NCBI RefSeq assembly: GCF_030378165.1
Contig: NZ_CP119766.1
Span: forward strand, 62,001 to 126,000
Length of the DNA stretch: 64,000 bases
Direction: 5' to 3'
DNA from: Flavobacterium panacagri
GTDB lineage: Bacteria > Bacteroidota > Bacteroidia > Flavobacteriales > Flavobacteriaceae
Of the stretch, positions 260 through 63,298 are shown piece after piece. The number at the start of each line of letters is the position of its first letter. Position 1 is the first letter of the stretch. The notes beneath the pieces are model-generated. The model was not told the origin of the DNA. It did not search any database and worked only from the letters and a program-made list of their open reading frames with translations. Both the position numbers and the translations under genes were made by a program.

Positions 260-268
260 ATTCATTTT

Positions 269-417
269 AACACATAGAAACATAGTTTTCATTGCGCAGA
301 AAAAGGCGTTTAACTTGCATAAAAACACATAGCAGTACTTTAACCATGTGTTAGAAACTAGTTTCTTTCAATATTCTTCTACAAGAAAAAAAATAGAATC
401 TATGTTTCTATGTGTTT
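269..417. repeat. 149-bp MITE-like element with AACACATAG terminal inverted repeats (copy A)
   Basis: The left end reads AACACATAGAAACATAG (269-285) and the right end is its reverse complement (400-416), so the unit has 17-bp terminal inverted repeats. Its interior (about 305-367) is an inverted, imperfect copy of the interior of the element at 37747-37888, including an AGAAACTAGTTTCT-like palindrome. It holds no credible ORF. The same ends bound the GxxExxY-gene element at 23950-24560, so this is probably a gene-less member of that family. No target-site duplication could be made out in the A/T-rich flanks. Confidence 0.75.
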
Positions 418-16305: not shown

Positions 16306-16344
16306 AATTTCTTCACTCTTTTTCCCGAGAGCTCGATAATTTGT

Positions 16345-16525
16345 TATAAAGGCAGGTCTCCTGGCTTGCGTCTTGTTGTTTTCCTTCCCATCACGCAGGG
16401 CGTGACAGTGGCTTTGCAGTTTACAACAAGCGTTCGTTTAAGAACTTAGCTTACAGTTGCGGGTACAGCTCAAGATTTTACTTGATTCCCTTTTAATGTG
16501 TTCATCAAAACACAACCTTATTTTG
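16345..16525 (-). promoter_or_regulatory. cobalamin (adenosylcobalamin-type) riboswitch
   Basis: Read on the minus strand, the leader contains AAAAGGGAATCAAG, then TGTACCCGCAACTGTAAGC, the invariant B12 box GCCACTG (reverse complement of 16406-16412), CACGCCCTGCGTGATGGGAAGG and a terminal CCAGGAGACCTGCC arm. These are the conserved core elements of the cobalamin riboswitch in their usual order. It sits between the cobC-like gene and the btuB-like receptor, so it controls receptor and YncE-like lipoprotein but not the salvage genes upstream. No U-tailed terminator follows, so control is probably at translation initiation. The exact ends are approximate. Confidence 0.96.
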
Positions 16526-16528
16526 CCG

Positions 16529-16561
16529 CAAAGATAAAGTTAAAAATACGGATTATTCAAA
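16529..16561 (-). promoter_or_regulatory. promoter of the riboswitch-btuB transcript
   Basis: On the minus strand TTTG (16561-16558) and TATCTTTG (16536-16529) are spaced by 21 bases, close to the Bacteroidota consensus. The expected start near 16524 coincides with the 5' edge of the riboswitch. Confidence 0.6.
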
Positions 16562-21744: not shown

Positions 21745-22887
21745 ATGAGACATTTATTACCGAAAATGGTTTTTATAGCTTCTTTTTTTATCCTGACAGG
21801 TTGTAAGAAGAATGAAAAAACGGAAACTGTAAAAACTGAAGACGCAAAAAACAGTATCGAATATGCGAGCGGACTTTCAATCGTAAAATATGATGATTAT
21901 TCAGTTGTAACTGTCTCAAATCCATGGCCAAATGCCAATAAAGATTTCAAATACATTTTAAAAGAAAAAGAAGCAAAAGTTCCGGACAGCCTTCAAAGTT
22001 ATACTACAATTCAAGTTCCGTTAACTTCTGTTGTGGTAACTTCAACTACTAATATTCCTTTTTTAGAAATGTTGGAAGTAGAAAATAATTTGGTTGGTTT
22101 TCCGCATACTGATTATATTTCTTCAGAAAAAACAAGAGCTTTAATTGACAAAGGTTCTGTGAAAAACGTTGGACAAAATGAAAAACTAAATATCGAACAA
22201 TTAATCGAGTTGTCTCCGGATTTGATTGTCACTTTTGGAGTAGATAACAATAATCCAATGTTGGATAATCTGAAAAAAAGCGGATTAAATGTTTTAATTC
22301 AAGGCGACTGGATGGAACAATCTCCCCTTGGAAAAGCAGAGTGGATTAAACTTTATGGTGCTTTATTTGGTAAAGAAGAGCAGGCAAAAGAACTTTTTGA
22401 TAAAATTGTTCAAAGTTATAATCAGGCGAAAAAAATGGTGGCTGATAAACCTGCAACTTCAAAAGTTTTATACGGTTCTATGTACGAAGATGTTTGGTAT
22501 GTCGCCAAAGGAAACAGCTGGGTTGCCGAGTTTATGAAAGATGCAAAAGCCAATTATTTGTGGGCTGATTTAAAAGGAAGCGGAAGTGAAGGTTTGTCTT
22601 TTGAAAAGGTTTTAGACAAAGCCAAAGATGCAAATGTCTGGATTGCTTCAGGTTCCTTCAAAAGTTTAGAAGAATTGCAAAAGGCAAATCCGCATTACGG
22701 AGAGTTTGATGCTTTTAAAAATAAAACAGTTTATAATTTTGAAGGCAAATTAGGAGCGACCGGAGGTACCGTTTATTACGAATTGGCTCCAAGCCGTCCT
22801 GATTTGGTTTTAAAGGATTATATCAAAATTTTTCATCCTGATTTATTATCAGGTTACGAATTTACTTTCGCATCAAAACTGAATTAA
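21745..22887 (+). CDS. btuF: ABC transporter substrate-binding lipoprotein, probable cobalamin/cobinamide (BtuF-like)
   Basis: A 380-residue periplasmic lipoprotein: lipobox ILTGC with Cys20, then a class III (helical-backbone) binding-protein fold. Diagnostic segments include VVTSTTNIPFLEMLEVENNLVGFPH, KLNIEQLIELSPDLIVTFG and a final lobe with GEFDAFKNKTVYN. FecB/BtuF proteins deliver corrinoids, haem or siderophores to FecCD permeases. Only one base separates it from the permease gene, and it diverges from cobalamin salvage genes, so corrinoid is the likely ligand. A TACCTTTG -7 element lies at 21716-21723, without a clear -33 partner. Confidence 0.88.
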   Translation: MRHLLPKMVFIASFFILTGCKKNEKTETVKTEDAKNSIEYASGLSIVKYDDYSVVTVSNPWPNANKDFKYILKEKEAKVPDSLQSYTTIQVPLTSVVVTSTTNIPFLEMLEVENNLVGFPHTDYISSEKTRALIDKGSVKNVGQNEKLNIEQLIELSPDLIVTFGVDNNNPMLDNLKKSGLNVLIQGDWMEQSPLGKAEWIKLYGALFGKEEQAKELFDKIVQSYNQAKKMVADKPATSKVLYGSMYEDVWYVAKGNSWVAEFMKDAKANYLWADLKGSGSEGLSFEKVLDKAKDANVWIASGSFKSLEELQKANPHYGEFDAFKNKTVYNFEGKLGATGGTVYYELAPSRPDLVLKDYIKIFHPDLLSGYEFTFASKLN

Positions 22888-22888
22888 A

Positions 22889-23917
22889 TTGGCAAATAAA
22901 AAACGAAATACCATTTTATTTGTCATTTTGGCGCTGGGACTTTTGCTGATGTTTTTCGCAAGCATTAGTTTAGGTTCTGTTATGATTCCTGCAAAAGATG
23001 TTTTTAACAGTTTAACTGGAGGACATGCGACAAAATCGACTTGGGAATATATCATTATAAATTACCGTTTACCAAAAGCAATCACCGCAGTTTTGGTTGG
23101 AAGCGGACTTTCAATCAGCGGACTTTTGATGCAGACTTTATTCCGTAATCCGCTCGCTGGGCCTTATGTGTTAGGATTGAGTTCGGGAGCAAGTTTAGGA
23201 GTTGCTTTTGTGATTTTAGGAGCAGGATTTCTGCCTTCTTTTTTAAGTGTAATTGCCTTGTCTTCTTATGGAATTGTTTTAGCCTCTACAGCCGGAAGTA
23301 CATTGGTTTTACTTTTGGTTTTAGTAGTTTCACAAAGATTGCGTGACACGATGGCCATTCTGATTGTGGGGTTAATGTTTGGAAGTTTTACCACAGCTAT
23401 TGTAAGCGTTCTGACTTATTTCAGCACAGCCGAACAGCTTCAAAAATTCACTTTTTGGTCAATGGGAAGTTTAGGAAATCTTTCATGGCCAACGATTGGC
23501 ATTTTGACAATTTGCATTGGAATCGGGTTGCTTTTAAGTGCCAAAAGCATAAAACCTTTAAATGCATTGCTTCTTGGAGAAAATTATGCCAAAAGCATGG
23601 GGTTGAATTTTAAACAAGCAAGATTAATAATCATCTTTGCCACAAGTATATTATCCGGAGCGATTACGGCCTTTGCGGGGCCAATAGCTTTTATCGGATT
23701 AGCAGTGCCTCATATTGCAAAACTGACTTTTCAAACCAGTAATCATACCATATTATTTTGGAGTACTTTATTTTTTGGTTCGATTATAATGTTGTTTTGT
23801 GATATTGTTTCACAAATGCCAGGATTTGAAGTTACGCTTCCAATCAATGCGATAACGTCTATTATTGGAGCGCCGGTTGTAATTTGGCTTTTGGTAAGAA
23901 AAAGAAATTTTAAGTAA
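22889..23917 (+). CDS. btuC: FecCD/BtuC-family ABC transporter permease
   Basis: A 342-residue inner membrane permease with about ten helices. The family motifs RLPKAITAVLVGSGLSISGLLMQTLFRNPLAGPYVLGLSSGASLG (about 53-97) and GPIAFIGLAVPHIAKL near 270 are clear, ending with PINAITSIIGAPVVIWLLV. The start must be TTG at 22889: an in-frame TGA lies 9 bases upstream and the first internal ATG lies within the first membrane helix. It follows btuF by one base. The cognate ATPase gene is now 657 bases downstream because a repeat-bounded element lies between. Confidence 0.92.
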   Translation: MANKKRNTILFVILALGLLLMFFASISLGSVMIPAKDVFNSLTGGHATKSTWEYIIINYRLPKAITAVLVGSGLSISGLLMQTLFRNPLAGPYVLGLSSGASLGVAFVILGAGFLPSFLSVIALSSYGIVLASTAGSTLVLLLVLVVSQRLRDTMAILIVGLMFGSFTTAIVSVLTYFSTAEQLQKFTFWSMGSLGNLSWPTIGILTICIGIGLLLSAKSIKPLNALLLGENYAKSMGLNFKQARLIIIFATSILSGAITAFAGPIAFIGLAVPHIAKLTFQTSNHTILFWSTLFFGSIIMLFCDIVSQMPGFEVTLPINAITSIIGAPVVIWLLVRKRNFK

Positions 23918-23949
23918 AAGATTACAAATTTTAATATCTTAGTTTTTTT

Positions 23950-24560
23950 AAACACATAGAAACATAGATTACTATTTTTTCTGAAAGTTAATTTTGAAAA
24001 TTTACTAGTAAATTAAAACATAGACTTTGCGAAAATGGAACATGTTCTTTTAAAAATTAAGATAATGATTACTCAGAAATATTTAGATGAATTGACTTTC
24101 AGTGTTATAGGGGCTTGTATTCAAGTGCATAAAACGATTGGAAGAGGATTATTGGAAAGTGTTTATCATGAATGTTTAAAAGAGGAATTGAGTTATCGTA
24201 AAATAAATTTTTTCACAGAAATGAATGTGCCTTTGATTTACAGAGATAAAGAATTAAATGCTAATTTAAAATGTGATTTATTTATTGAAAATTGTTTAGT
24301 TGTAGAATTAAAAGCAACATTAGAATTAAATCCTATTTGTGAAGCACAGTTAATGACTTATATGAAACTCTTAAAAGCACCAAAAGGCATTTTGATTAAC
24401 TTTAATTGCTTTAATATTTTTAAAGAAGGTCAAAAAACATTCGTAAACGAATATTACAAATTACTCCCAAAGATTTAAACTCAAAGCTATGTGTTAATTT
24501 ACTAGTAAATTTTCAAATCAACTCTCAGAAAAAGGAAAAAACCTATGTTTCTATGTGTTT
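23950..24560. mobile_element. 611-bp element with ~80-bp terminal inverted repeats carrying a GxxExxY gene
   Basis: The left arm (23950-24029) and right arm (24482-24560) are imperfect inverted repeats. The outer 18 bases AAACACATAGAAACATAG are exact. After a variable ~13-base stretch the arms match again through CTGA.AGTT.ATTT, a GAAAATTTACTAGTAAATT block and an ACATAG..CTTTG end. The only ORF inside is the GxxExxY gene. The element separates btuC from btuD. Two shorter elements (269-417, 37747-37888) share the outer ends. I infer a discrete transposable or once-mobile unit; no direct target duplication is visible. Confidence 0.75.
24065..24478 (+). CDS. GxxExxY-family protein (PD-(D/E)XK-like)
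   Basis: A 137-residue protein of the GxxExxY family. The name-giving motif is GLLESVYHECL (about residues 25-35), preceded by VIGACIQVHKTIG. A putative PD-(D/E)XK nuclease core follows: Asp in LKCDLFI and, ten residues later, VELKA (E-x-K). Family members occur in many Bacteroidota, and their function is not established. I start at ATG 24065 because homologues begin near ITQKYLDELTFSVIG; an ATG at 24035 would add ten residues. It sits alone inside long inverted repeats between btuC and btuD, so any expression may come from read-through of the transporter operon. Confidence 0.9.
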   Translation: MITQKYLDELTFSVIGACIQVHKTIGRGLLESVYHECLKEELSYRKINFFTEMNVPLIYRDKELNANLKCDLFIENCLVVELKATLELNPICEAQLMTYMKLLKAPKGILINFNCFNIFKEGQKTFVNEYYKLLPKI

Positions 24561-24574
24561 AAAAAATAACCACA

Positions 24575-25354
24575 ATGATTAAAAGTATCTTAAATACATC
24601 AAATTTAAATATTGGATATAAATCCAAGAAAGGTGTTACAACTGTTGCCAAAGATCTGAATTTAAATCTGGATTCAGGAAAACTGATTACTTTAATAGGA
24701 GCAAACGGAATTGGAAAATCGACTTTACTTCGGACTATAACCGGAATTCAAAAACCTTTATCAGGAAATGTTTATTTGAATGAAAAAGAAATTTCACATT
24801 ATAAACCTTTAGAACTGGCGCAGAATTTAAGCTTGGTTTTAACCGAAAAACTGCCTCCAAGTAATTTGTCTGTTTTTGAATTAGTCGCTTTAGGTCGTCA
24901 GCCTTATACCAATTGGGTGGATAGTTTGTCGAAAGAGGATATTGAGAAAGTTCAGGAAGCATTGCGTTTAACTCAGATTGAACACTTAGCTTCAAAAAAA
25001 CATTTCGAAATCAGTGACGGACAATTGCAGAAAGTCTTAATTTCAAGAGCTTTAGCACAAGATACGCCGCTGATTATTTTAGATGAACCTACAACACATT
25101 TGGATTTATTGCATAAAGTTTCTTTATTTAAATTATTGAAGAAACTAACACAAGAAACTGAGAAATGTATTTTGTTTTCAACCCACGATATCGATTTGGC
25201 CATTCAGTTAAGTGACGAAATGATTATTATGACACCGGAAAATATTGTACAGGATCAGCCTTGTAATTTAATTTCTAATGGTAGTTTTAATAATTTGTTC
25301 AAAGACGAACATATTATTTTTGATGCGGAAAAAGGGAAGTTTATTGTGAATTGA
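24575..25354 (+). CDS. btuD: FecE/BtuD-family ABC transporter ATP-binding protein
   Basis: A 259-residue ATPase that powers the BtuC-type permease. Walker A is GANGIGKST (about 38-46), the signature is the degenerate ISDGQLQKVLISRALAQ near 147, Walker B is LIILDEPTTHLD near 170 and the switch histidine is in LFSTHDIDLA near 203. It would form the BtuC2D2 complex with the upstream permease. A 611-bp GxxExxY element separates it from btuC, starting 14 bases before this ATG. Whether it is still cotranscribed with btuFC is therefore a real question. Confidence 0.92.
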   Translation: MIKSILNTSNLNIGYKSKKGVTTVAKDLNLNLDSGKLITLIGANGIGKSTLLRTITGIQKPLSGNVYLNEKEISHYKPLELAQNLSLVLTEKLPPSNLSVFELVALGRQPYTNWVDSLSKEDIEKVQEALRLTQIEHLASKKHFEISDGQLQKVLISRALAQDTPLIILDEPTTHLDLLHKVSLFKLLKKLTQETEKCILFSTHDIDLAIQLSDEMIIMTPENIVQDQPCNLISNGSFNNLFKDEHIIFDAEKGKFIVN

Positions 25355-25365
25355 TTTTCAGTCTT

Positions 25366-25456
25366 TCCTGCAAGGTTTTCCAAACCTTGTAGGTTTAAAT
25401 TTTAGATTTTGATGGAAAATAACAAATACCTACAAGGTTTGGAAAACCTTGCAGGA
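25366..25456. repeat. perfect 29-bp inverted repeat with 33-base loop
   Basis: The arms 25366-25394 and 25428-25456 are exact reverse complements (starting TCCTGCAAGGTTTTCC). They lie between the convergent btuD and trmL genes, so the structure may terminate both. It has no clean T run, so it is better viewed as a dispersed palindromic repeat that can act as a terminator. Confidence 0.85.
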
Positions 25457-25465
25457 ACGTAGTAA

Positions 25466-37746: not shown

Positions 37747-37888
37747 AAACACATAGAAACATAGATTTGGTTTGTCTTTATAAAGAATAAAGAAAGAAAC
37801 TCGTTTCTAACACATAGTAATGATATGTGAACTTATGCAAGTGAAACGCCTTTTTTATAGATTCCAATGAACTATGTTTCTATGTGTT
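37747..37888. repeat. 142-bp MITE-like element with AACACATAG terminal inverted repeats (copy C)
   Basis: The ends AACACATAGAAACATAG and CTATGTTTCTATGTGTT are exact 17-bp inverted repeats. The interior is an inverted copy of the interior of the element at 269-417 (shared blocks around GAAACTCGTTTC, ACACATAG.A and TTGCA.GTGAAACGCC), with about 80 percent similarity by eye. It lies between rmuC and the thioesterase gene and carries no ORF. Confidence 0.75.
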
Positions 37889-37923
37889 CAAAAAAAACTA
37901 ACCATTCCAAAAAAACAAAAAGC

Positions 37924-59133: not shown

Positions 59134-61595
59134 AACCTCGCATTAATCTTAACGTTAAAAACCCTCGAAGTCATATAATTTGGAATTGCATATTGGTTTT
59201 TTGAATACACATCACGAACCCAGGTATTGGTAATAGCATTTTGATTATTAAAAAGATTGAAAATTTCCAATCCAACAGCTAATTCTTTAAAGTTTTTCAG
59301 CCAGCCTTTTTTCGTATTCTGCGTACTGCTGTCCACAAAAACCTTTGCAAAACCAATATCGGCTCTTCTATAATCATTTAACCTGTTTTGGTACAAATAT
59401 GGATCAGAATAAGCTGGCGCTCCACCGGGAAGTCCTGTATTATAAACTAAATTCAAATACACTTTTACACTAGGAATATTCGGCATATAATCCTGAAACA
59501 GCATCGCAAATTTCAGTCTTTGATCTGTTGGACGTGCAATATACCCTTTGTTTTCGTAATTTTCCTCTGTTTTCATGTAACCAAAACTTACCCAAGATTC
59601 TGTTCCCGGCACGAATTCTCCGTTCAATCTAAAATCTAAACCTTGCGCATAGGCTTTTGCATTATTATTGGCGACATATCGAATGCGGACATTATCAATC
59701 GAATATACATTTACATCTGAAAGTGATTTATAATAAAGTTCCGTTACCCATTTAAAAGGGCGGTTCCACATTTTAAAATTATAATCATTACCCAGAACTA
59801 CATGAACAGCTTCCTGCGCTTTCACATTTGGATTTACAACCCCATCCAAATCACGGAGTTCTCTGTAAAATGGCGGTTGATGATATAATCCTCCTGAAAT
59901 CCTGAAAACCATATCACGATCCCAATCCGGTTTAATTGCAAACTGCGCACGCGGACTTACAACGGTCTGATTTTTTCCTTCTTCTGAAGCTCCAGAAACA
60001 TTCCAGCTTTGAAAACGAGCTCCGAAATGATACCAGACTCTGCTCGAACCAATTTCAGACTGCTTGTTCCATTGTGCATATCCTGAAAATCTATTGATTG
60101 TATTGAAGTTTGTCGCTCGAATATCTTGATAAGGCAAAAGTGGCCCAGTGTAGGGACTGTACGGCTGATTATTTTCTGGCAAAATTGCTATTGGAGGATT
60201 TATAGAAAATCCAGCCGAATCGATTACTTCCCACTCAACTACTCTATCGCGAATGGATTCTCTGGTATATTTTAAACCAAATTCCAACTGACTTTCTTTC
60301 CATTCTTTTGTTCCCTTCAATTCGATATTGGCAATTAAAGCGTCCAAATCGTTACGGGCATGATTCAGTTGCGAACCAATTCCACGAGTAAAATCAATTG
60401 TGGATGGATCTGTTGGATTTTCTGGATCAACATTTCCTAAACGATATTGTGCTAAAATATCAAAATGCTCTTTTTCAGTGGTATGAAATAATGATCCGAT
60501 TAACTTTAGCGTAAGTGAAGGAGAAGCTTTATAAGTCGTTTTTAAAGCTCCAAAATAGGTGTCATATTGATCTTTTTCCTGACCTTGATAATAAACCGCA
60601 AGTGCCATTGGCTGATCGATTGTTCCGAATTTAGTTTCTCGTGTTAAAGGCTGATATAAATATTTATTTTCTGAAATATTTCCGAGAAAACTCATCTGCC
60701 ATTTTTCAGAAATATCATAATTAACATTGGTCTGAATATCTGCAAAAGTCGGTGTATAATTGGTTTGAGTGTCTTGACTATTTACCAGCAGACTATTATT
60801 TCTGTAACGAACCCCAGTAACTGCCGACCATTTTTTATTTTTAGAAACCAAATCTACAGAAGCGCTTCCGCCCAAAAAACTGGCTTCAAAAGAAGCACCA
60901 AACTGAGTTGGTTTTCTGTACGTAATATCTAAAACAGAAGACAATTTATCTCCAAATTTCGCCTGAAATCCACCAGCAGAAAAATCGACATTCTGCACTA
61001 AATCTGTATTGGTAAAACTCAAACCTTCCTGCTGTCCTGAGCGAATTAAAAACGGACGATATACTTCTACCTCATTTACATAAACCAGATTTTCGTCATA
61101 ATTTCCACCGCGAACCATATATTGAGAACTTAATTCATTATTAGAGTTCACACCGGGAAGCGTTTTCAGTACATTTTCGATTCCTGCATTAGCACCTGGA
61201 ATCTTTTTTATGGTTTCAGCATCAATAGTTGCAATGCCCTGAACTCGTTTTCTATTTCCTGAAGAAACAAAAACTTCTCCCATTTGCTCCTGCGAATTGT
61301 TCATTATCGGATTAAAAACAAAAATTTCATTTGTTTTTAAACTAACCTTTAAGCTGATCATTTTTAAAGAAACATGGGTAAATATCAAAGAAACCTTTCT
61401 ATTGGAAGGAACTACAATTTCAAAAAAACCATTCGAATCAGACTGAACTAAATTTCCCTGTGAAGAAATATTTACACTTGGCACAGGATGTTTGTCTGTA
61501 TCTAAAATTACTCCTTTAATACTGGCTGTCTGAGCTAATGAAATACAGCTGACAAATAATAAAAGAAAAGCGAATATAAACCTATTATTACTCAA
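59130..61595 (-). CDS. TonB-dependent receptor with carboxypeptidase-like N-domain
   Basis: An 821-residue outer membrane receptor. Signal peptide about 1-22 (CISLAQ), then a carboxypeptidase-regulatory-like beta domain (about 24-105, ASIKGVILDTDKHPVPSVNISSQGNLVQSDSNGFFEIVV), plug about 115-235 (IDAETIKKIPGANAGIENVLKTLPGVNSNNELSSQYMVRGGNYDENLVYVNEVEVYRPF) and a barrel ending in VFNVKINARL. The start is TTG: the frame is closed by TAG 30 bases upstream and there is no ATG in it. It lies 11 bases after the M23 gene and overlaps the two-TM gene. Cargo is unknown. Confidence 0.92.
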   Translation of the reverse strand: MSNNRFIFAFLLLFVSCISLAQTASIKGVILDTDKHPVPSVNISSQGNLVQSDSNGFFEIVVPSNRKVSLIFTHVSLKMISLKVSLKTNEIFVFNPIMNNSQEQMGEVFVSSGNRKRVQGIATIDAETIKKIPGANAGIENVLKTLPGVNSNNELSSQYMVRGGNYDENLVYVNEVEVYRPFLIRSGQQEGLSFTNTDLVQNVDFSAGGFQAKFGDKLSSVLDITYRKPTQFGASFEASFLGGSASVDLVSKNKKWSAVTGVRYRNNSLLVNSQDTQTNYTPTFADIQTNVNYDISEKWQMSFLGNISENKYLYQPLTRETKFGTIDQPMALAVYYQGQEKDQYDTYFGALKTTYKASPSLTLKLIGSLFHTTEKEHFDILAQYRLGNVDPENPTDPSTIDFTRGIGSQLNHARNDLDALIANIELKGTKEWKESQLEFGLKYTRESIRDRVVEWEVIDSAGFSINPPIAILPENNQPYSPYTGPLLPYQDIRATNFNTINRFSGYAQWNKQSEIGSSRVWYHFGARFQSWNVSGASEEGKNQTVVSPRAQFAIKPDWDRDMVFRISGGLYHQPPFYRELRDLDGVVNPNVKAQEAVHVVLGNDYNFKMWNRPFKWVTELYYKSLSDVNVYSIDNVRIRYVANNNAKAYAQGLDFRLNGEFVPGTESWVSFGYMKTEENYENKGYIARPTDQRLKFAMLFQDYMPNIPSVKVYLNLVYNTGLPGGAPAYSDPYLYQNRLNDYRRADIGFAKVFVDSSTQNTKKGWLKNFKELAVGLEIFNLFNNQNAITNTWVRDVYSKNQYAIPNYMTSRVFNVKINARL

Positions 61596-61606
61596 AGATT
61601 CGGGTT

Positions 61607-63298
61607 TTATTTTTGTTGACTTCTAAAAAAATGAGTTTCAAAGATAGTAGTATTTCCTACATTATCGACAACTTCAACTTTTAAATCATTTGCGCCTTCA
61701 TTCAATAAAGCATCATCAAAAACATGCGTAATTCTTCTGGCTTTATTTTCATATTCAAACAAAACCCAATTCCCGTTTATATAACCGTTATATGATTTTA
61801 TTCCCGATAAAGAATCACTAATTATAAAATCAACTTTCTTTTGATCACTAATCCATTTGTCTTGAATTGGCTTTGTAATCGAAATTTTCGGAGCGATTGT
61901 ATCGAGAACCAAACCATACTGACCTAATATTTTGGCTTTTGCTGTAAAAACATCACCTTTTCTAACAGTTCCGTTATGACTTGTTCCTCTTCCGATATAT
62001 AACTTATCTCTTAAATTTTCCGGATAAGAATCGTCTTTTATCGTTATTGTAAAATTAGAATGAACTGGAACAGTATCATCGTGGATATAAAGTTTTTTAT
62101 TTCGAACATCAAAGTTCATATTAAAATCTTCATAGAAAGTGCCAGCCGGAAAGAAAACTGACATATTATCTTTTTCGAAATTAGAATCTTTATTATACCG
62201 AACAAAATATGGAGAAGTAACTGGTTGTGCTTCTACAATCGGAGTGACACTGTCAAACTCAATTGGAACAGTAACTGTTCTTAAATTTCCAAAATAGTCC
62301 GAAACTTCGATTCTGTAAGTAGAAGCTAAATTAGGCTCTGTTTTTATAATACCGCGAAGTGAATCCGTTTTAATAATACTTAAAGCAAAAGGTGTTTTCA
62401 TAAAAAGCTTCTGCACACGCTGACTTGTTTTTTTGTATCTTGAATAATCAATAAAAGCATTGATATAACGCATCTCATCAAAAGAATAGGTATTAAACTG
62501 GTAGTTATAATTTTGATTTCCATTTAAAAAACTAGTCACATTAAAAACACCATTTTTATTAAAAGAAACATCATCAGTATCCACAGCATTGATTCCAAAA
62601 CCAATTTTCCCGTTTGCTTTCACTTTTGCTGCTAAATAATTTCCATCTTTCTGAAGTGTCATGGCCAGCAGCAAAGGCTGTTTAGACTGATTCACAGTTG
62701 CATTATCCAAAGGATATACATACAAACTGGACAAAGTTGGCTTTTTGGTGTCTTTTATATTTTGGTCAAAGCCAAAGAAAATTGGATTGATGACAAACTC
62801 CGTTTTAGAATCACGAATTTCAAAATGAAGATGTGGTCCTTCAGATGAGCCTGTATTTCCTGACAAACCTATAATTTCTCCTTTGGTAACTGGAAGTTCA
62901 CCTGGCTTTGGGAACATTTCAATTTCATACGCTTTTTCTTTGTAATGAGTTGCTTTAACATAATCTAAAATTGCTCCAACCGGAGTCTGCAAATGCCCAT
63001 AAACAGAAGTATATCCGTTAGAATGTGTAATGTAAATACATTTGCCATTTCCAAATGTTGAAATCTTGATTCTCGATACATAACCATCTGCAATTGCATG
63101 CACACTCAAACCTTCTCTTTGATTGGTTTTTAAATCGAAGCCAGCATGAAAATGGTTAGGTCTTAACTCTCCAAAGTTACCAGAAAGTTGCATTGGAATA
63201 TCAAGCGGAGGGCGGAAATAGTCTTTAGGATATTGCGTTTGAGCAAATAAAAAATTACAAATAAAAAGGGTAAGTACAGAAAATCTCATAAGCAACAT
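61607..63298 (-). CDS. M23-family (LytM) peptidase
   Basis: A 563-residue exported peptidase. Signal peptide about 1-19 (CNFLFAQ). The LytM domain follows (about 45-175): zinc ligands HAGFD (His51, Asp55) and HLHFE near 156-160, with YGHLQTPVG between. These M23 residues are complete, so it should cut peptidoglycan or other glycine-rich peptides. The C-terminal ~370 residues are beta-rich and fibronectin- or Ig-like, with DTIAPKISITKPIQDKWISDQKKVDF typical of such repeats. It heads the minus-strand operon with the TonB receptor and diverges from the zapA cluster. Confidence 0.9.
   Translation of the reverse strand: MLLMRFSVLTLFICNFLFAQTQYPKDYFRPPLDIPMQLSGNFGELRPNHFHAGFDLKTNQREGLSVHAIADGYVSRIKISTFGNGKCIYITHSNGYTSVYGHLQTPVGAILDYVKATHYKEKAYEIEMFPKPGELPVTKGEIIGLSGNTGSSEGPHLHFEIRDSKTEFVINPIFFGFDQNIKDTKKPTLSSLYVYPLDNATVNQSKQPLLLAMTLQKDGNYLAAKVKANGKIGFGINAVDTDDVSFNKNGVFNVTSFLNGNQNYNYQFNTYSFDEMRYINAFIDYSRYKKTSQRVQKLFMKTPFALSIIKTDSLRGIIKTEPNLASTYRIEVSDYFGNLRTVTVPIEFDSVTPIVEAQPVTSPYFVRYNKDSNFEKDNMSVFFPAGTFYEDFNMNFDVRNKKLYIHDDTVPVHSNFTITIKDDSYPENLRDKLYIGRGTSHNGTVRKGDVFTAKAKILGQYGLVLDTIAPKISITKPIQDKWISDQKKVDFIISDSLSGIKSYNGYINGNWVLFEYENKARRITHVFDDALLNEGANDLKVEVVDNVGNTTIFETHFFRSQQK

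Follow-up and report, generated by a model that had tools for sequence, protein, structure and literature searches.

The 64,000-bp stretch of the Flavobacterium panacagri genome analysed here (contig NZ_CP119766.1, forward-strand positions 62,001 to 126,000; hereafter the window, numbered from its first base) contains a 611-bp unit (23950-24560) in which a gene for a GxxExxY protein is enclosed by inverted repeats between btuC and btuD. Genes for a btuF-like periplasmic binding protein (21745..22887) and a btuC-like FecCD permease (22889..23917) precede the unit on the forward strand, and one for a btuD-like ABC ATPase (24575..25354) follows on the same strand, each recognized from its open reading frame (ORF) and profile matches. 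The btu names are based on riboswitch context and on NCBIfam matches that are best but under cut-off; the sole Rfam match in the window, a cobalamin riboswitch (16334-16535, reverse strand), lies about 5.2 kb before btuF on the opposite strand, which fits the assignment of a B12 locus. Just past btuD is a perfect 30-bp inverted repeat (25365-25394 and 25428-25457), differing in sequence from the tip family described below.

An inverted-repeat search and the ORF listing bore out the original prediction, made from the DNA letters, that the unit has imperfect arms of about 80 bp with exact 18-bp inverted tips, that a lone GxxExxY ORF stands between them and that the whole separates btuC from btuD. 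The left arm (23944..24023, forward strand) carries the outer tip AAACACATAGAAACATAG (23950-23967), the palindrome AATTTACTAGTAAATT (23999-24014) and an inner ACATAG (24018-24023), and the right arm (24487..24566, reverse strand) carries the inner CTATGTGT (24487-24494), the palindrome AATTTACTAGTAAATT (24496-24511) and the outer tip (24543-24560). The arms match in an outer (23944-23970/24540-24566, 27 nt, 96%), a middle (23976-24002/24507-24533, 27 nt, 81%) and an inner segment pair (23993-24023/24487-24517, 31 nt, 97%). Only one ORF of at least 60 aa lies between them (24035-24478, 147 aa); the gene probably starts at 24065 (24065..24478, forward strand, 137 aa), because most of the 120 listed homologues have 137 residues.

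The protein is a full member of the GxxExxY/PDDEXK_3 family by both models, with 124.4 bits against TIGR04256 (cut-off 35) and 122.5 bits against PF13366 (cut-off 22). These were its sole matches at E ≤ 0.001 in Pfam-type and NCBIfam-type profile scans, which detected in the unit neither the HuH-Y (Y1) transposase of RAYT/REPIN systems nor any other known transposase domain. Its closest named relative among the 120 homologues is a Flavobacterium procerum protein (96%). The signature residues are G28, E31 and Y34, followed by D71, E81, K83, Q95 and Y99 (numbered from the start at 24065); a QxxxY motif is a mark of RecB-type nucleases. The proposed E-x-K/PD-(D/E)XK-like core held up across 114 Flavobacterium loci, in which D71 (114/114), E81 (113/114) and K83 (114/114) are near-invariant. 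In the predicted structure, D71 would fall within strand 69-74 and E81 and K83 within the neighbouring strand 78-83, and the best fold match of the model is SSO0001 (4ic1), a Cas4. The protein retains the residues of a PD-(D/E)XK active site, and its model is that of a minimal Cas4/RecB-like nuclease. Its orthologues are under purifying selection, the ratio of nonsynonymous to synonymous substitution rates (dN/dS) being 0.06-0.18 in 11 of 12 picked orthologues, with no value for the twelfth; these ratios are rough because dS exceeds 1 in most of the 12.

Within the genus, the class of the terminal repeats matches the protein clade. The 114 GxxExxY loci were scored against five tip classes, T1 (ACACATAG-AAACATAG), T2 (ACATATAAG-TSATATAAG), T3 (ACCATTAAG-RDATTAAG), T4 (GCCACGAAG-GCACAAAG-ACGCTAAG) and T5 (TTCACAAAG-ATTCACAAAG). 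In 80 loci the two ends agreed (T1 31, T3 22, T2 20, T4 4, T5 3), 21 loci had a single classed end, and conflicting ends occurred in none. Placed on the protein tree, the tip labels needed 12 changes, compared with a minimum of 5 and with 66.9 when shuffled; T4 is the only clean single clade, and one T1 locus (L098) falls outside the main T1 clade. In each of four genomes (G089, G068, G115 and G032) two T1-clade genes occupy different sites, every one with at least one T1 end.

The idea of a recently mobile insert did not survive comparison with relatives; the unit is old, because many Flavobacterium species have the same gene with the same tips at btuC-btuD. Of 150 Flavobacterium genomes, 121 contain a relative of the protein (E ≤ 0.001). 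Among 30 listed GxxExxY loci, one per genome and including that of the window, 23 adjoin btuC and/or btuD, and 20 of these have T1 at both ends; L041 and L043 have T1 at one end and also show a left tip that runs into the match, and L052, which lies at a contig end, has T1 at neither. Conversely, among 30 listed btuC loci, again including the window's own, 14 carry the gene or a fragment of it at btuC-btuD (L074 and L082 have fragments that retain just the right arm) and the other 16 do not carry it there, so that the interval is shared by some relatives and not by all. The 16 geneless spacers measure 20-232 bp, except one of 805 bp, and 13 of them contain no tip-like 16-mer even at 4 mismatches. 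At btuC-btuD the inner arms vary among species and the tips are kept. By eye, the 805-bp spacer (L085, G056) seems to contain another small ORF that is not GxxExxY, and the geneless spacers of L061, L067, L075, L076 and L077 show other word repeats, of the CACAGATTA..TAATCTGTGG and CTTAGAATCTCAGC types.

A search for other copies of the tip showed that the unit is not unique, because its tips are members of an extensive dispersed repeat family; of the unit originally proposed, the part that stands is that terminal repeats and gene belong together. Allowing up to 2 mismatches, AAACACATAGAAACATAG occurs 75 + 86 = 161 times on the two strands of the 5.98-Mb host genome, compared with 1 + 0 for a reversed control pattern, so its abundance is not due to chance. 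We examined 846 kb of this genome (about 386 kb round the window, a further 280 kb at 3.5 Mb, and nine stretches of 20 kb each, some chosen for already known tips). Here 68 of 77 tips form 34 adjacent inverted pairs, and the sole pair holding a gene is the GxxExxY unit at btuC-btuD. Thirty-two pairs span at most 320 bp and contain no closed ATG-initiated ORF above 21 aa, and one spans 423 bp with no open stretch above 36 aa. A collection of 32 distinct short elements comprises 20 of 131-150 bp, one of 122 bp and 11 of 160-304 bp that have extra middle sequence. Two short elements of the tip family, neither with a gene of its own, lie in the window, both without an assigned strand, at 268..417 (150 bp) and 37747..37889 (143 bp), the latter being present, absent or inverted in relatives. 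Besides the outer tips, short elements usually have the inner ACACATAG/CTATGTGT pair; GGCGTTTCACTT lies in one arm of 31 of the 32 (≤2 mismatches) and GAAACTAGTTTC in the opposite arm of 27. Gene-bearing units share this design, with the gene placed between the inner motifs. GGCGTTTCACTT was found in 8 of 36 T1 units and not in that of the window, whose two arms each bear a TTTACTAGTAAA palindrome instead.

Such arms could pair in RNA, and PMC4990558 describes the intervening sequences (IVS) of 23S rRNA as likewise containing a small ORF. However, it is very improbable that the element is an RNA-level unit of this kind, with arms that pair in the transcript, a loop that RNase III excises and an ORF that is incidental. 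The element in the window matches no Rfam family, and none reached cut-off in eight short-element loci; moreover, the ORF is under strong selection with its predicted nuclease site intact, and geneless copies outnumber the gene copy.

Comparison with related genomes revealed changes at individual element sites. The element at host position 60927 is missing in G042, a close relative of the host (G000), in which about 155 bp of other sequence is found, and at 171424 and 169796 element parts are iterated in G042. At the last site G042 shows three iterated half-elements of the tip family alternating with CAGATTTAGCAGATT-type words. The element at 99747 (window position 37747; L211, L212, L213 and L218) is inverted in G042 and G049 relative to G000, G015 and G136, and a remnant in G083 is oriented as in G000; tips are present at this site in 5 of the 29 loci compared, the host's own included, and in none of the other 24. 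Transposition of the short elements is likely, and the inversion at 99747 could have arisen through other recombination between repeats. The suggested homing-like unit is a poor fit, since the element retains the words within itself; no target site was found.

The number of tips in a genome also tracks the cognate gene. Tip counts in the 150 Flavobacterium genomes were regressed on genome size and the presence of three clades, with species phylogeny uncorrected and gene presence typed among the matches listed, weak or unlisted copies being scored as absent. The copy number of each tip follows its own clade and not the other two after genome size is taken into account, with own-clade t values of 8.5 (T1), 5.3 (T2) and 6.1 (T3) and values of at most 1.7 for other clades. 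Without genome size, the other clades were associated too, with areas under the curve of 0.59-0.73 versus 0.80-0.89 for the own clade.

The arrangement extends beyond the genus, with GxxExxY genes found preferentially between such arms; the alternative that other members of the family lack repeats is contradicted for most loci. A GxxExxY match over cut-off was found in 99 of 198 Bacteroidota genomes. With the 95% limit taken from off-gene controls in the same loci, flank complementarity exceeded it in 26 of 30 listed Bacteroidota loci; at least two C[AG]CN[AG]AG words pointed inward on both sides in 22, and 3 had the opposite sense. A GTDB species scan with a five-member alignment gave at least 571 loci, of which the best 80 were taken and 78 had enough flank. 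In this sample 64 loci exceeded the 95% control and 60 the 99% control, mostly with CRCNRAG words (typically CACAGAG, CGCAGAG, CACGAAG and CGCAAAG), which pointed inward on both sides in 57 loci versus 15 in the opposite sense. Many of these loci come from metagenome bins, whose taxon labels may err; among those not labelled Bacteroidetes 31 of 37 exceeded the 95% control, as did 27 of 30 when Chlorobi and Ignavibacteria were also excluded. The 27 span Acidobacteria, Planctomycetes, Chloroflexi, Cyanobacteria, Verrucomicrobia, Proteobacteria, a Bacillota and an archaeal record; the Elusimicrobia locus failed the 95% control. Geneless dispersed copies were counted in Flavobacterium.

A second protein family shows a similar arrangement. 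The three genes of the host for TIGR02436 four-helix-bundle proteins (L027, L028 and L029) lie inside inverted word arrays, and 23 of 31 TIGR02436 loci (L350-L378 included) exceeded the 95% control, with other words such as AGTATCAAG and TTAGCTTTTAGC. The CRCNRAG frame occurred in none of the 31, so the words go with the protein family, and a single shared vehicle does not account for the frame.

The inward orientation also bears on whether the words are sites through which the nuclease marks or controls its own gene and a scattered regulon, the enzyme causing no mobility and the palindromes spreading by other means. This fits the age of the gene, its usual limitation to one copy per clade and genome, the purifying selection on it and the retention of the tips at btuC-btuD. 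Inward words on both sides of the gene would be unneeded for autoregulation, however, and the short elements repeat the two-ended layout and vary between species by absence, inversion or iteration, which makes this explanation unlikely.

We are nearly certain that the gene-repeat frame itself is real. The words round the gene are also scattered in Flavobacterium genomes, suggesting that the enzyme handles those repeats, and we lean, with slightly better than even confidence, towards an analogue of RAYT/REPIN systems in which a resident nuclease of unrelated type is paired with cognate dispersed palindromes. In such a pair, the minimal PD-(D/E)XK nuclease would recognise the tandem short words that make up the inverted ends around its own gene, together with the like ends of dozens of geneless palindromic elements in the same genome. 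It would cut at these words, and short elements would spread, flip or be removed when the cut ends are, on rare occasions, repaired or copied. The gene would stay at its old locus under vertical inheritance, with the short elements being moved in trans only infrequently. From the patterns above we infer that the words are bound and cut by the protein and that this cutting drives the spread of the short elements.

Several observations weigh against this reading. The five tip classes had been derived from the arms of these 114 loci themselves, 13 of which have no classed end and no matching frame. Because most gene copies are orthologous and sit at fixed loci, the independent sites (T1 9, T3 4, T5 2, T2 1, T4 1, from single-linkage clustering of flanking DNA, in which diverged sites may be split) number far fewer than the loci scored. 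Only 43 of the 114 loci exceeded the 95% limit of cross-paired controls, in which repeat families are shared, and against cross-paired flanks 19 of the 30 Bacteroidota loci exceeded 95% and 8 exceeded 99%; 14 of the 78 many-phyla loci have no matching frame. Within the host genome, arms flank L002 and L003, L001 has an upstream hairpin only and L004 nothing (L001 and L004 score 48 and 42 in the 114-locus arm scoring). Genome size is as strong as the gene for T1 and T2 tip number (t 10.2 and 9.6). At least 20 tips occur without the cognate gene among the matches listed in 10 genomes for T1 (125 in G103), 29 for T2 (the host itself has 42 T2 tips) and 9 for T3, and the gene is present with at most 3 tips in 3 (T1), 1 (T2) and 3 (T3) genomes. 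Finally, alignment of relatives at the host's element sites, the 29 loci at 99747 among them, revealed neither a clean empty site nor a target duplication.

The many genomes that hold tips without a cognate gene would also be expected if the gene were a passenger caught in a repeat family moved by another transposase, such as a RAYT or insertion-sequence enzyme, an option already raised in the original prediction; the unrelated TIGR02436 family between inverted word arrays points the same way. Yet a clade-specific tip within the genus and CRCNRAG words across phyla are not expected of a passenger, and the TIGR02436 genes have other words, which weakens this option and leaves it quite improbable.

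Inverted repeats of the CACAGAG, CGCAAAG and CACGAAG types are common outside Flavobacterium. Extending the nuclease-palindrome pairing to them, we propose tentatively, at somewhat less than even confidence, that GxxExxY proteins, which number thousands across bacteria and archaea, are word-specific nucleases that made and maintain widespread interspersed repeats consisting of inverted arrays of such words, with a word per clade, that TIGR02436 proteins do likewise with other words, and that together they would form a new gene-repeat class beside RAYT/REPIN. The link between gene and repeats gives a first testable role to a very large protein family of unknown function and a candidate enzyme to a class of interspersed repeats for which we know of no maker. 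The match of clade to word predicts which DNA each protein should bind.

Among known systems, the IVS with an S23/TIGR02436 four-helix-bundle ORF resembles the unit in having a small ORF between inverted arms, but the protein here is unrelated (TIGR04256), the words are others, and the unit lies at btuC-btuD and not in rRNA. Insertion sequences and their derived miniature inverted-repeat transposable elements have terminal inverted repeats common to a coding unit and many short non-coding ones; the unit at 23950-24560 and the short elements likewise share such repeats, but no known transposase domain or target duplication was found, and in the host a single coding unit carries these tips, at an old locus. 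Cas4/RecB-type PD-(D/E)XK nucleases are similar in the predicted fold (SSO0001/4ic1) and in the putative D-ExK and Q95-Y99 arrangement, whereas Cas4 has an iron-sulphur part that the 137-aa GxxExxY protein is without. The GxxExxY passage of PMC8934634 does not mention repeats. In RAYT/REPIN systems, a resident, vertically inherited, low-copy gene is tied to dispersed non-coding inverted repeat doublets (PMC8049555). Here, too, a vertically inherited gene of low copy number (two T1-clade genes in four genomes) accompanies dispersed non-coding inverted doublets with common ends. RAYTs, however, are HuH-Y enzymes (PMC6006769), whereas GxxExxY is a PF13366 protein with D-ExK residues; its ends are tandem 8-10 bp words, and what was observed for a putative role of the enzyme in duplication is a copy-number association. 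The pair would thus work like the RAYT family without being a member of it, and, if this is true, PD-(D/E)XK enzymes have independently taken the place held by HuH enzymes in RAYT/REPIN systems.
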